A stretch of DNA of 24,194 bases from a virus. The stretch lies in IMG/VR virus record IMGVR_UViG_3300034356_000878, positions 1 to 24,194 of that record, one strand, 5' to 3'. A model generated the notes under the pieces. That model saw only the letters and a list, made by a program, of their open reading frames with translations. It ran no database searches and was not told where the DNA came from. Positions within the stretch are counted from its first letter, which is position 1. Each line of letters begins with the position of its first letter. Made by a program: the position numbers and the translations under genes. This document shows positions 1,708-4,561 of the stretch, piece after piece.

Positions 1708-2652
1708 TTACTTGCGCTTATTTACCAAGTAAGGGGTTCCACCATTTCGCGCCTGGCGGGTAACAACCACTTCACCATTGAACAAGCCGTTCTTCGCTTT
1801 GCCCATTACAGCCAAGACCTTAGCCTTAGCCAAATTAGCCTGTTCAATTGCCTGCGCTTCGTCAGCAATAACTTTGGCGTATTCAACAAACAGATCACCA
1901 AGTTCTTCCTTGCCGTCTGGGTCAATGTCTGGGTGTTGTTCGCGCACAGTCTGCAAAGTGCTGGTGAACGGTGCAGAAAAGTCTGGCACAGTGCCTGCGT
2001 CAACAAACGCCTTCACTTCCGTAACTGCTGCCAAGTTTGCTTCTGCTTCAAATTCGTTGTAGTCAATTTGGAACTGGCGCATTTTCGAACCAGCAAACAA
2101 AACAACAACGTAAGCCCGCGCGAAACCAAAGGTCTGCAAATACCAAAGAACCTGGGCGCGATAGTGTGCAGGAATTTCGCCAGTCTTTTCGTTCCAGCCG
2201 TCTTCATAACGTGCAGTTTTGACTTCAATAATTCCATAACCGCGAACGTCCTGGTCTTCACCCAGGGCAGGGTCTTCATTGCTAAATTCGTAAATTGCGT
2301 CAGGGTTTGCTTGCTGCCAAGGACGGTCCTGGTGGCACCAAGTTCCAACTTCGCGGTGCAAAATAAATTCTGGGTGGTCCTTAGCCCACACGTCCAGAAT
2401 TACGCTTTCAAGTGTCGTTCCCCAAAACATTGCTTCGCTTGGTTCCAGGTTGTCTTCGATAAGACCAACACGTTTAGCAGCCCACGTGTAAGGCGACTGC
2501 CAAGGTGAAAGACCAGCAAGAACACCTGCGTCACTTCCACCAATTCCCTTAGCGCGTTGTTCGTGCCATTCAGGGCTTTGGTTTTCGAACTTGCCAACAA
2601 GGTGTGCCGTGCCAAGAATTTCTGGCAATTGTGATACGTTATTTACAGCCAT
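1708..2652 (-). CDS. YqaJ-type viral recombinase exonuclease
   Basis: A 314-residue lambda-exonuclease/YqaJ-family protein expected to degrade one strand from dsDNA ends to make 3' overhangs for an annealing protein. Visible motifs in order: SPEWHEQRAKGIGGSDAG (26-43) with the GGSDA signature, SPW (49-51), G78xxxE82, NPDAIYEF with catalytic Asp118, IIEVKTA (141-147) with Glu143-x-Lys145, and YRAQVLWYLQ (164-173) with Gln167. These match the family's catalytic set, and the length is usual. ATG at 2652 is preceded by AAGGAA at good spacing. It is the first gene of the leftward early operon, and its leader carries a long inverted repeat (2685-2709). Confidence 0.9.
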   Translation of the reverse strand: MAVNNVSQLPEILGTAHLVGKFENQSPEWHEQRAKGIGGSDAGVLAGLSPWQSPYTWAAKRVGLIEDNLEPSEAMFWGTTLESVILDVWAKDHPEFILHREVGTWCHQDRPWQQANPDAIYEFSNEDPALGEDQDVRGYGIIEVKTARYEDGWNEKTGEIPAHYRAQVLWYLQTFGFARAYVVVLFAGSKMRQFQIDYNEFEAEANLAAVTEVKAFVDAGTVPDFSAPFTSTLQTVREQHPDIDPDGKEELGDLFVEYAKVIADEAQAIEQANLAKAKVLAVMGKAKNGLFNGEVVVTRQARNGGTPYLVNKRK

Positions 2653-2683
2653 TGGGTTCCTTCCCTTCGCCTGGTGGTCGCAT
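2639..2683 (-). CDS. Possible 14-residue leader peptide overlapping exonuclease start
   Basis: An ATG at 2683, three bases after the large inverted repeat, opens a frame encoding MRPPGEGKEPNGCK and stopping at 2639, inside the exonuclease gene. It overlaps the exonuclease ATG in another frame. There is no convincing ribosome site, so it would have to be translated from a leaderless or very short-leader transcript. It may be chance. Confidence 0.15.
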   Translation of the reverse strand: MRPPGEGKEPNGCK

Positions 2684-2684
2684 T

Positions 2685-2709
2685 ACGGGTAGCCAATTTG
2701 GTTGCCCGT
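2685..2709. repeat. 25-base imperfect inverted repeat in the divergent early intergenic region
   Basis: Half-sites ACGGGTAGCCAA (2685-2696) and TTGGTTGCCCGT (2698-2709) are inverted around a single central T. They are perfect except at two pair positions that would be G-U wobbles in RNA. It lies between the leftward exonuclease gene and rightward whiB. The core GGGTAGCC...GGTTGCCC recurs at 4443-4461. It could be an operator or an RNA hairpin in the exonuclease leader. Confidence 0.6.
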
Positions 2710-2750
2710 TTTGCGTTTCCAGGATCTTTATTTGTGTAATACTTACCTTA

Positions 2751-2765
2751 GTCGGACCTTCCGAC
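2751..2765. promoter_or_regulatory. Inverted repeat upstream of whiB (operator candidate)
   Basis: GTCGGA-CCT-TCCGAC is a perfect 6+3+6 inverted repeat, 22 bases before the whiB GTG start. A TAATAC-like -10 candidate lies just upstream (about 2737-2742), which would put the repeat in the early transcribed region or over the transcription start. It may be an operator for the divergent promoters. No promoter element here is strong. Confidence 0.4.
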
Positions 2766-2787
2766 ATTCCAAACGTAAGGGAAGAAC

Positions 2788-3051
2788 GTGTTTGAAACAT
2801 TTGCAATAAACCCAGACTTGAAAGCACTTTACGACGCCCAGGACGCCGCCCCAGAAATAGTTCCCTGCACGAACGACCCAGACCTTTATTTTCCAGAAGG
2901 ACCCCAGCAAGACTGGGAAAAGGAAATGATCAAGGCAGCCTGCAACAGTTGCCCAATACTAAAGCAGTGCGCCGCCTACGGTGAGAAATACGCCACAGCA
3001 GGCGTCTGGGGTGGCAAACGCTACGTTGAACGCCCTGGCAGCAAAGGCTAA
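2788..3051 (+). CDS. whiB-like: WhiB-family Fe-S transcriptional regulator
   Basis: An 87-residue WhiB-like protein, the only rightward gene in the window. Four cysteines (Cys27, Cys52, Cys55, Cys61) give the C...CxxCxxxxxC arrangement that binds a [4Fe-4S] cluster. It is followed by the conserved GVWGG turn (residues 72-76) and a short basic tail (KRY...ERPGSKG), the DNA-contacting part of the family. WhiB proteins bind the principal sigma factor's region 4 and redirect or repress host promoters; some phage versions interfere with host regulators. The start is GTG at 2788 with AAGGGA eight bases upstream. Its own terminator follows, so it is a monocistronic unit transcribed away from the exonuclease operon. 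Confidence 0.93.
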   Translation: MFETFAINPDLKALYDAQDAAPEIVPCTNDPDLYFPEGPQQDWEKEMIKAACNSCPILKQCAAYGEKYATAGVWGGKRYVERPGSKG

Positions 3052-3061
3052 GACAATAAGA

Positions 3062-3093
3062 AAAACCACCCGCCCGCAAAGGTAGGTGGTTTT
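3062..3093. terminator. Bidirectional terminator between whiB and the sigma-like gene
   Basis: A perfect 9-bp stem AAAACCACC (3062-3070) / GGTGGTTTT (3085-3093) with a 14-base loop. Rightward transcripts end in a T-rich run (3090-3099) and leftward transcripts in TTTTTCTTATT (from 3065 down). It lies between the convergent whiB and sigma-like genes and can end both. Confidence 0.88.
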
Positions 3094-3117
3094 CTTTTTA
3101 TGGCGGCTAGGCAGCGG

Positions 3118-3705
3118 TCACAACCTATTGCCCGCCAAACTATCGGCTAAACGGTGAATAGCGCGGTCCACAGCCTTCTTAGCCCCGTCCTTGGAAATGC
3201 CACGCAATTCCCCAACTTCTTCCAGGCTAAGTCCGTCCTGGAAACGCCAAATAAGCACCTGGCGCACTTCAGGGTTCAAACCCCAGAACGCCTGCCTAAT
3301 GTCTGTAATGATCGTCAAAGCCAGGTTGCTTTCGTTAGGCACCTGGACAGGTTGACCAGTGCCAGGGTTGACGTTCACGCTGGTAACAGGCGTGTCTTCG
3401 AAAATGAAAGGCAACGCGCGACGCAACAATTCAGGCGTATAAAATTCGTCATACAACGGACGCCCAACACTAGCCGCCTGTTCCTTTGCACAAAACTTGG
3501 CTGCTTCCCGACGAAGCGAAACATACAGTTTGCCGTTGTCCCCAGGTTCGTTGCGCCAACGTTCCAGGGTGCGCCAATTTTCCACCAGCCACAAAAACAG
3601 GTGCTGTTGTAGATCGTCAATTTCTACTGCTGTCCACTTCGAACCAATACGCCAGGCAACCTTTTCAGCCAGTTTCAGTTCGTGTTCTGTTACTTGCTGC
3701 TTCAT
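3118..3705 (-). CDS. Sigma-70-like (region 2/4) transcription factor
   Basis: A 195-residue protein. Residues 142-190 contain a sigma region 4-type helix-turn-helix: LNPEVRQVLIWRFQDGLSLE followed by EVGELRGISKDGAKKAVDRAIHRL. Residues 28-75 (EIDDLQQHLFLWLVENW...LYVSLRREAAKFC) resemble the helical region 2 that binds core RNA polymerase. The middle 80-140 is divergent. I start it at ATG 3705, whose ATGA overlaps the TGA of the upstream exonuclease gene; an in-frame ATG at 3771 would overlap that gene by 70 bases. Such small sigma-like proteins in phages probably drive middle or late gene expression. A pure DNA-binding regulator without core-binding ability is the alternative. Confidence 0.78.
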   Translation of the reverse strand: MKQQVTEHELKLAEKVAWRIGSKWTAVEIDDLQQHLFLWLVENWRTLERWRNEPGDNGKLYVSLRREAAKFCAKEQAASVGRPLYDEFYTPELLRRALPFIFEDTPVTSVNVNPGTGQPVQVPNESNLALTIITDIRQAFWGLNPEVRQVLIWRFQDGLSLEEVGELRGISKDGAKKAVDRAIHRLADSLAGNRL

Positions 3706-4436
3706 ACCGCCCGCATACTTGTTGAAGCCAAAGAAGTTGCGCCACGCTGCCAAGACCCGCAAGCCTTGCACTGGTAACGCTGGTAAGCAGCCGAAGCAGT
3801 CATTGCATAACCGCGACGCATAAGTTCCTTAGAACCACAGTTGCGGCAACCGTCTGCTTCCAGGTTGTGCATTGCATAGTTTGGTCCGTTCTTGATCCAG
3901 GGCTTTAGAATTTCATAAAGGTCCACCAGCAAATTTACATCTTGAATTTGGTATTCCTTCATTTCTTTCCAGGCGGCGCGGTTGCCCGCCATACAGTCCA
4001 GCCACAGTTGGAAGCCGCTGTGCTTCACCTTGGCACCAACGCCAAGTTTCTGGGCAACATAGTCCAGTTTATTTGAAGGCATACGGAATTGCGCCTTGAC
4101 CACTTGCATAAGGTCCAAGTCTTTCCAGGGCGAAGGTGGCAGGTAGCCGTTTTCTAAGAATTCACGCCTAATGTGCTTGCTGTCGAAGTCGCGCGAATTC
4201 CAGCCAATAACAACGTCCGCTTCGTGCATTAGATCGTGCAGTGTGTCTAGCATTTCTTTTTTGCCGTGGTGGTGAACCGACTTGAACACGACCTTCTTGC
4301 CGCCGTGCCAACGCGCACCGAAACAAATAACTTCGGTGGTCGAAACCAATTTGTCTATGGAAATGTTTTGGTTCCATAAACCCCAGACGTGTGCCAGGTT
4401 AGGACTGGTTTCCAGGTCCAAGAAAAGTATTTTCAT
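3702..4436 (-). CDS. DnaQ-like 3'-5' exonuclease (DEDDy) with C-terminal zinc ribbon
   Basis: A 244-residue RNase H-fold exonuclease. Exo I: FLDLETSP with Asp7 and Glu9. Exo II: GWNSRDFDSKHI with Asn80 and Asp85. Exo III: YQIQD with Tyr162 and Asp166, making it the DEDDy subtype found in B-family polymerase proofreading domains. The C-terminus carries CRNC (Cys197, Cys200) and CKAC (Cys223, Cys226), a zinc ribbon that could bind nucleic acid. There is no polymerase domain in this protein, and no polymerase gene in the window. It is first in a two-gene unit with the sigma-like factor. There is no clear ribosome site before the ATG; a TACCCT six bases upstream would fit a leaderless transcript, common in actinobacteria. 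Confidence 0.88.
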   Translation of the reverse strand: MKILFLDLETSPNLAHVWGLWNQNISIDKLVSTTEVICFGARWHGGKKVVFKSVHHHGKKEMLDTLHDLMHEADVVIGWNSRDFDSKHIRREFLENGYLPPSPWKDLDLMQVVKAQFRMPSNKLDYVAQKLGVGAKVKHSGFQLWLDCMAGNRAAWKEMKEYQIQDVNLLVDLYEILKPWIKNGPNYAMHNLEADGCRNCGSKELMRRGYAMTASAAYQRYQCKACGSWQRGATSLASTSMRAV

Positions 4437-4442
4437 AGTTCA

Positions 4443-4461
4443 AGGGTAGCCAGGTTGCCCT
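4443..4461. repeat. Inverted repeat in the DEDDy exonuclease leader
   Basis: AGGGTAGCC-A-GGTTGCCCT is a 9+1+9 inverted repeat with two G-T pairs. It carries the same half-site core (GGGTAGCC / GGTTGCCC) as the repeat at 2685-2709 but with a shorter spacer. It lies seven bases upstream of the exonuclease ATG, where a bound repressor or an RNA hairpin would affect expression. Confidence 0.55.
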
Positions 4462-4488
4462 GGTCGCTGTGTTTAGGCGCGTTGGGCG

Positions 4489-4530
4489 TGTCGAAAAGGG
4501 AAAACCCCCAAACCCGTGAAGGTCTGGGGG
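4489..4530 (-). terminator. Terminator after the small Cys protein gene
   Basis: Arms 4505-4514 and 4521-4530 form a 10-pair stem with one A-C mismatch and a six-base loop. On the minus strand it is followed by TTTTCCCTTTT. It lies just past the stop of the 80-residue gene and isolates it from the exonuclease/sigma unit. Confidence 0.82.
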
Positions 4531-4561
4531 CTTCTTCCCCACGATAGGGGGGCGGGGAAGT

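Follow-up and report, generated by a model that had tools for sequence, protein, structure and literature searches.

A probable antisense RNA over the start of a recombination exonuclease gene in uncultured phages carrying WhiB-like genes

In this study, we propose that an inverted repeat in the leader of a RecE/YqaJ-like recombination exonuclease gene serves as the terminator hairpin of a small antisense RNA encoded in cis, which probably blocks translation of the exonuclease in a manner resembling the sar RNA of phage P22. The window analysed is the whole virus sequence of 24,194 nucleotides, and its relevant features are collected in Table 1. The predicted antisense RNA covers the start signal of the gene and has been maintained across dozens of uncultured relatives, so that its probable role is to switch the exonuclease off. 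If real, it would belong to a family of antisense RNAs, conserved over more than 30 distinct leaders, through which uncultured phages carrying WhiB control a recombination exonuclease, and would add a post-transcriptional layer to phage recombination control. It would also mean that what looks like an "operator" repeat in a phage leader may turn out to be the terminator of an antisense RNA.

Table 1. Genes and predicted elements around the two leaders of the window
Feature	Position	Strand	Description
RecE/YqaJ-like recombination exonuclease	1708..2652	-	314 aa; Pfam YqaJ 8.8e-17; PHROG RecE-like exonuclease 3e-63
Predicted antisense-RNA promoter	2619..2640	+	TTTCTG-N10-TACGTT, in exonuclease codons; -10 box TACGTT at 2635-2640
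Predicted antisense RNA	2647..2720	+	about 74 nt, from complement of exonuclease codon 2 to terminator tail
Predicted 5′ hairpin of antisense RNA	2648..2678	+	10-bp stem including start-codon complement; 11-nt loop UCCUUCCCUUC
Predicted intrinsic terminator	2685..2720	+	11-bp stem 2685-2709; extension CGCA/TGCG (2679-2682 with 2712-2715); tail TTTTGCGTTTC
Predicted exonuclease promoter motif	2745..2766	-	TGTCGG-N10-TAAGGT; -10 at 2745-2750; implied leader length about 86 nt
WhiB-like gene	2788..3051	+	divergent from exonuclease; Pfam Whib 4.2e-10
Sigma-like protein	3118-3771		
DEDDy exonuclease	3702..4436	-	DNA polymerase exonuclease subunit family; PHROG 403, 3.5e-86
Repeat in DEDDy leader	4443..4461		not the same element as the exonuclease-leader repeat; overlaps likely -10 box TACCCT (4443-4448, - strand)

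A conserved hairpin in the exonuclease leader and its strand

Syntenic relatives (L150, L151, L122 and others) were collected by protein searches in IMG/VR; they are uncultured virus contigs or fragments, with start codons assigned mechanically. In more than 30 related phages, a hairpin is found at the matching place of the exonuclease leader, its stem differing in sequence from phage to phage and its pairing being maintained. Five of these leaders, taken on the sense strand, were used to build a covariance model, which recovered the other leaders as well as the window, with a modest score for the latter (16.3 bits, E 0.036 in 24 kb). Strong matches are limited to at most one per phage record, at the exonuclease. 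Across 13 sequences, 12 of the 15 pairs show two-sided changes, and the covariation score reaches 0.538, against 0.169 ± 0.027 after shuffling and at most 0.116 after sliding. When the 4227 covariance models of Rfam were searched, no match was obtained in the window, L150 or L122, and L151 gave one irrelevant match below threshold.

The strand on which this structure acts can be read from its pairs. Indeed, the repeat of the window folds with -22.0 kcal/mol on the + strand and only -11.4 on the exonuclease strand, because two "mismatches" of the 25-base repeat become G-U pairs on the + strand, which gives a clue to the true strand. Over 20 leaders, the antisense fold is more stable than the sense fold in 19 and has the lower z-score in 15; 61 G-U pairs are counted on the antisense strand versus 7 on the sense strand, where the same positions are unpaired (A-C). 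Moreover, the sense 5′ flank GGAAANGCAAAAC becomes, when read antisense, a T-rich tail directly 3′ of the stem, and such a tail exists on the antisense side only. The site also has the most G-C pairs among the terminator-like hairpins of the first 8 kb. Since fold stability, G-U pairs and the T-rich tail favour the antisense strand, we identify the conserved structure, from its sequence features, as an intrinsic terminator for rightward transcription.

Some variations of this type of structure were observed. In L243, L245 and L250, the terminator loop, read antisense, holds CCCCC, identical to the 5′ arm of the stem; it could alternatively pair with the 3′ GGGGG arm, and a switch is possible. 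Elsewhere in the window, the covariance model cross-matched at 3061-3101, beside whiB, and at 4493-4535, and these matches correspond to terminator-like hairpins viewed from the back. The hairpins, at 4500-4530 and 3061-3101, have split T tracts (TTTTCCCTTTT, TTTTCTTTTT) and are similar in style to the exonuclease-leader terminator.

An antisense promoter and an anti-Shine-Dalgarno hairpin

As the terminator reads rightward, its transcription must start within the exonuclease gene. An antisense TANNNT box was found at a fixed place there, at codons 5-6 (offset 12 or 13), in 19 of the 20 leaders of the first set, and in 20 of 21 when L253 is added. Re-drawing synonymous codons gave 3.88 ± 1.69 such boxes, with a maximum of 11 in 5000 draws. 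The residues encoded at the box vary (NV, SL, IV, TI and others), and the codons GTA, ATA, CTA or TTA are used in all but two leaders. Ten nucleotides upstream of the box, at the -28 position, TGTC is present in 7 of 20 relatives and is a motif shared with the exonuclease promoter (TGTCNG-N10-TANNNT); the hexamer of the window at this position, TTTCTG, is one base off, and the -35 region is weak.

The exonuclease promoter motif itself was found in 18 of 25 exonuclease leaders, mostly 106-121 nt 5′ of the start codon, for a mean of 0.026 in shuffled sequences. Its 10-nt spacing differs from that of a sigma-70 -35 box, and an activator (WhiB-like, sigma-like or a host WhiA-type protein) may therefore bind it. 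Just upstream of its -10 box, at 2751-2765, lies a perfect inverted repeat, GTCGGA-AGG-TCCGAC, with GTCGCA-TGG-TGCGAC at the matching position in L150. This repeat is a better operator candidate than those at 2685-2709 and 4443-4461.

A validation set of 25 leaders that had not been used before was scored for the box at offset 12/13 and for the antisense terminator. Both were present in 14 leaders and neither in 7, the terminator alone being found in 3 and the box alone in 1 (Fisher p=0.0017, a statistic that, like those on conservation, ignores shared ancestry, positives and controls lying partly in different clades). The box was thus detected in 15 of these leaders; a terminator was detected antisense in 17 of them and sense in a single one. 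Leaders devoid of the promoter and terminator mostly also lack the 5′ hairpin described below. A terminator without a -10 box at offset 12/13 is seen in L230, L338, L349 and L364, perhaps because of a misplaced start codon in the latter two.

Placing the RNA start about 7 nt 3′ of the -10 box, we infer an RNA that overlaps the exonuclease Shine-Dalgarno and the ATG at 2652. The stretch 2646-2720 is predicted to fold into two hairpins (-36.2 kcal/mol, z -5.9). In the first, the start-codon complement is paired to a GGUG segment, and the exposed loop, UCCUUCCCUUC, is exactly complementary to the Shine-Dalgarno region of the exonuclease. This anti-Shine-Dalgarno design was recognised in 31 of 38 leaders, five of the 38 having no clear 5′ hairpin. 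In the 33 leaders compared, the contiguous stem has a median length of 9 bp antisense versus 4 bp sense; the antisense stem is the longer one in 29 and the sense stem in none, and controls without the unit split 6 and 6. Only transcription of the antisense strand into a structured RNA would lead one to expect such an asymmetry, which, judged from the predicted stems, also keeps the start site of the mRNA relatively open. What the comparison between relatives establishes at the sequence level is the promoter box, the terminator and both hairpins of the antisense strand, as well as the fact that these parts come and go jointly and do not depend on whiB.

We can propose the following mechanism. 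The rightward promoter in the first exonuclease codons would fire toward the exonuclease promoter and yield an RNA presenting the anti-Shine-Dalgarno hairpin first, followed by the hairpin and U-rich tail that would halt transcription before the exonuclease promoter is reached. The loop would then pair with the exonuclease mRNA, and the duplex would spread across the ribosome-binding site and start codon, so that translation of the exonuclease, and perhaps of its operon, would be blocked. The production of the RNA, its ends and the translational repression are what we infer from this arrangement. We also considered an action in trans, in which the loop UCCUUCCCUUC would pair with GAAGGGAA-type ribosome-binding sites of other messages of the phage, of a superinfecting phage or of the host. 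Such an extension is speculative and rather unlikely; if true, the RNA would be a general translational switch and not a private regulator of the exonuclease.

Alternative readings and the second repeat

Two facing promoters about 100 bp apart with a terminator between them could also serve only to shape transcription, by interference between the convergent promoters or by protection of the exonuclease and whiB promoters, the RNA itself being functionless. As the conserved anti-Shine-Dalgarno hairpin is unneeded for either interference or insulation, we regard this as unlikely. An element of the exonuclease mRNA leader, acting on stability, as an RNase III cleavage site or as a translational operator, was our first model, with strong covariation of a stem that sits in the predicted 5′ UTR and, in most relatives, precedes the start codon by 26-33 nt. 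The G-U and T-tail evidence moved the element to the opposite strand: the A-C mismatches of the sense strand are antisense G-U pairs, the T-rich tail and the -10 box are antisense, and the 5′ hairpin is disrupted when read sense. We therefore consider an mRNA-leader element quite improbable. The original prediction had taken the changed spacing of the two repeats as favouring an RNA hairpin over a DNA operator; this appears right for the exonuclease site, except that the RNA would be the antisense one and not the exonuclease leader.

With whiB downstream and on the same strand in most relatives, the repeat might instead be an attenuator in a long whiB leader begun within the exonuclease gene. 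This candidate was rejected as very improbable, since L253 has the antisense unit and no whiB beside its exonuclease; there, the upstream gene is co-oriented, and the exonuclease promoter motif, the terminator and the antisense box are all kept. In addition, whiB lies at a distance of 300-359 nt in L243, L245 and L250, and relatives without the unit still have a divergent whiB. In L243, L245 and L250, an extra small cysteine-rich ORF with CxxC motifs, encoded on the antisense strand, separates whiB from the exonuclease. Among cultured phages, a DNA search gave nothing close to the window. The closest by its exonuclease is PFR1 (36% identity), and the closest cultured phages are without the arrangement, the PFR1 exonuclease starting about 35 bp after a co-oriented gene. 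A search with the WhiB-like protein returned no match.

The antisense RNA proposed here concerns the exonuclease leader, and the second repeat of the window has to be considered separately. The two repeats read ACGGGTAGCC-AATTT-GGTTGCCCGT (25 bases, 2685-2709) and AGGGTAGCC-A-GGTTGCCCT (19 bases, 4443-4461). As originally described, they have the same half-sites, GGGTAGCC then GGTTGCCC, in the same order with spacers of 5 and 1, and both lie upstream of leftward genes, the exonuclease starting at 2652 and the DEDDy exonuclease at 4436. The half-site pair occurs only twice in the whole 24-kb record. Nevertheless, half-site sharing alone is weak evidence, because, when the window was shuffled 60 times with its dinucleotides kept, at least one shared inverted half-site pair also arose in 7 of the shuffles (mean 0.13). 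Non-coding sequence makes up only about 4% of the window, so it is less likely that both repeats fell in leaders by chance, an argument that is post hoc. The half-sites were absent from every IMG/VR relative scanned, and a scan of the whole collection for the pair gave at least 119 stretches, which is about chance level by our own estimate.

In relatives whose neighbouring genes are conserved, where the original prediction looked for conservation of the repeats, the one at the exonuclease survives as a structure and not as a sequence, and the one at the DEDDy gene does not. Indeed, the DEDDy repeat was not recognised by the covariance model for the exonuclease hairpin (2.4 bits), and it is absent from the DEDDy leaders of L150 and L151 although the flanks align (CGACACG, GCTA, CTT, ATG). 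A TANNNT box lies exactly 6 nt before the ATG in the window (TACCCT) and in L150 and L151 (TAGTCT), with no obvious Shine-Dalgarno, which fits a leaderless message; the DEDDy message is likely of this type. This -10 box shares bases with the right half-site in its minus-strand reading (GGCTACCC). Some 30 nt further upstream, CGACACG followed by TAAAC is conserved (about 4475-4492, - strand; also in L150 and L151). CGACACG contains GACAC, the WhiA consensus of Streptomyces (PMC3781837), and a WhiA-type box is a lead here.

The common regulator originally suggested for the two units (WhiB-like, sigma-like or a repressor), which would use as operators the half-sites common to both leaders, is extremely improbable and was rejected, since the half-sites are absent in relatives, their spacing differs by 4 bp, the exonuclease stems vary freely yet keep pairing, and the DEDDy copy is unconserved and differently structured. 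The two repeats are not supported as one shared element, and their resemblance is best read as a coincidence or a decayed copy.

Relation to known repeats and antisense RNAs

Inverted repeats just upstream of start codons are known in actinophages, as the ESAS/SAS elements of Cluster K and the repeats of Clusters O and EG; they are conserved in sequence, with several to 34 copies per genome, and for ESAS the authors saw little support for RNA pairing (PMC3203893, PMC4351075, PMC7302621). Unlike SAS/ESAS, the exonuclease-leader hairpin is present as a single copy per phage, its sequence is free and its pairing is kept, which places it outside this type of element. Among the titles listed by literature searches, there was no phage antisense RNA against a recombination exonuclease.

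Among antisense RNAs, the countertranscripts of plasmids and transposons (CopA/CopT, IS10 RNA-OUT) are stem-loop RNAs complementary to the leader of their target, with a 3′ stem-loop that is the terminator. The RNA predicted here differs from them by having no role in copy number or transposition and by a loop that is complementary to the Shine-Dalgarno itself. The OOP RNA of phage lambda, about 77 nt long, is a terminator-ended antisense RNA opposite a phage gene and covers the 3′ end of cII. The predicted RNA is likewise terminator-ended but, unlike OOP, covers the start of its target.

The sar RNA of phage P22 is close to 68-69 nt long and ends at an intrinsic terminator. We claim no sequence relation to sar, and several traits set the two apart: the target here is an exonuclease and not an antirepressor, the promoter lies within the first codons of the target, and the hosts of the arrangement are uncultured phages with WhiB-like genes. 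On the other hand, the sar RNA blocks the ribosome-binding site of ant (PMC7968456), and the RNA predicted here would likewise be a small phage RNA made from the opposite strand over the ribosome-binding site of its target gene. As far as can be predicted from sequence, it has the same traits as sar: a promoter of its own on the opposite strand, an overlap with the ribosome-binding site and start codon, and an intrinsic terminator.
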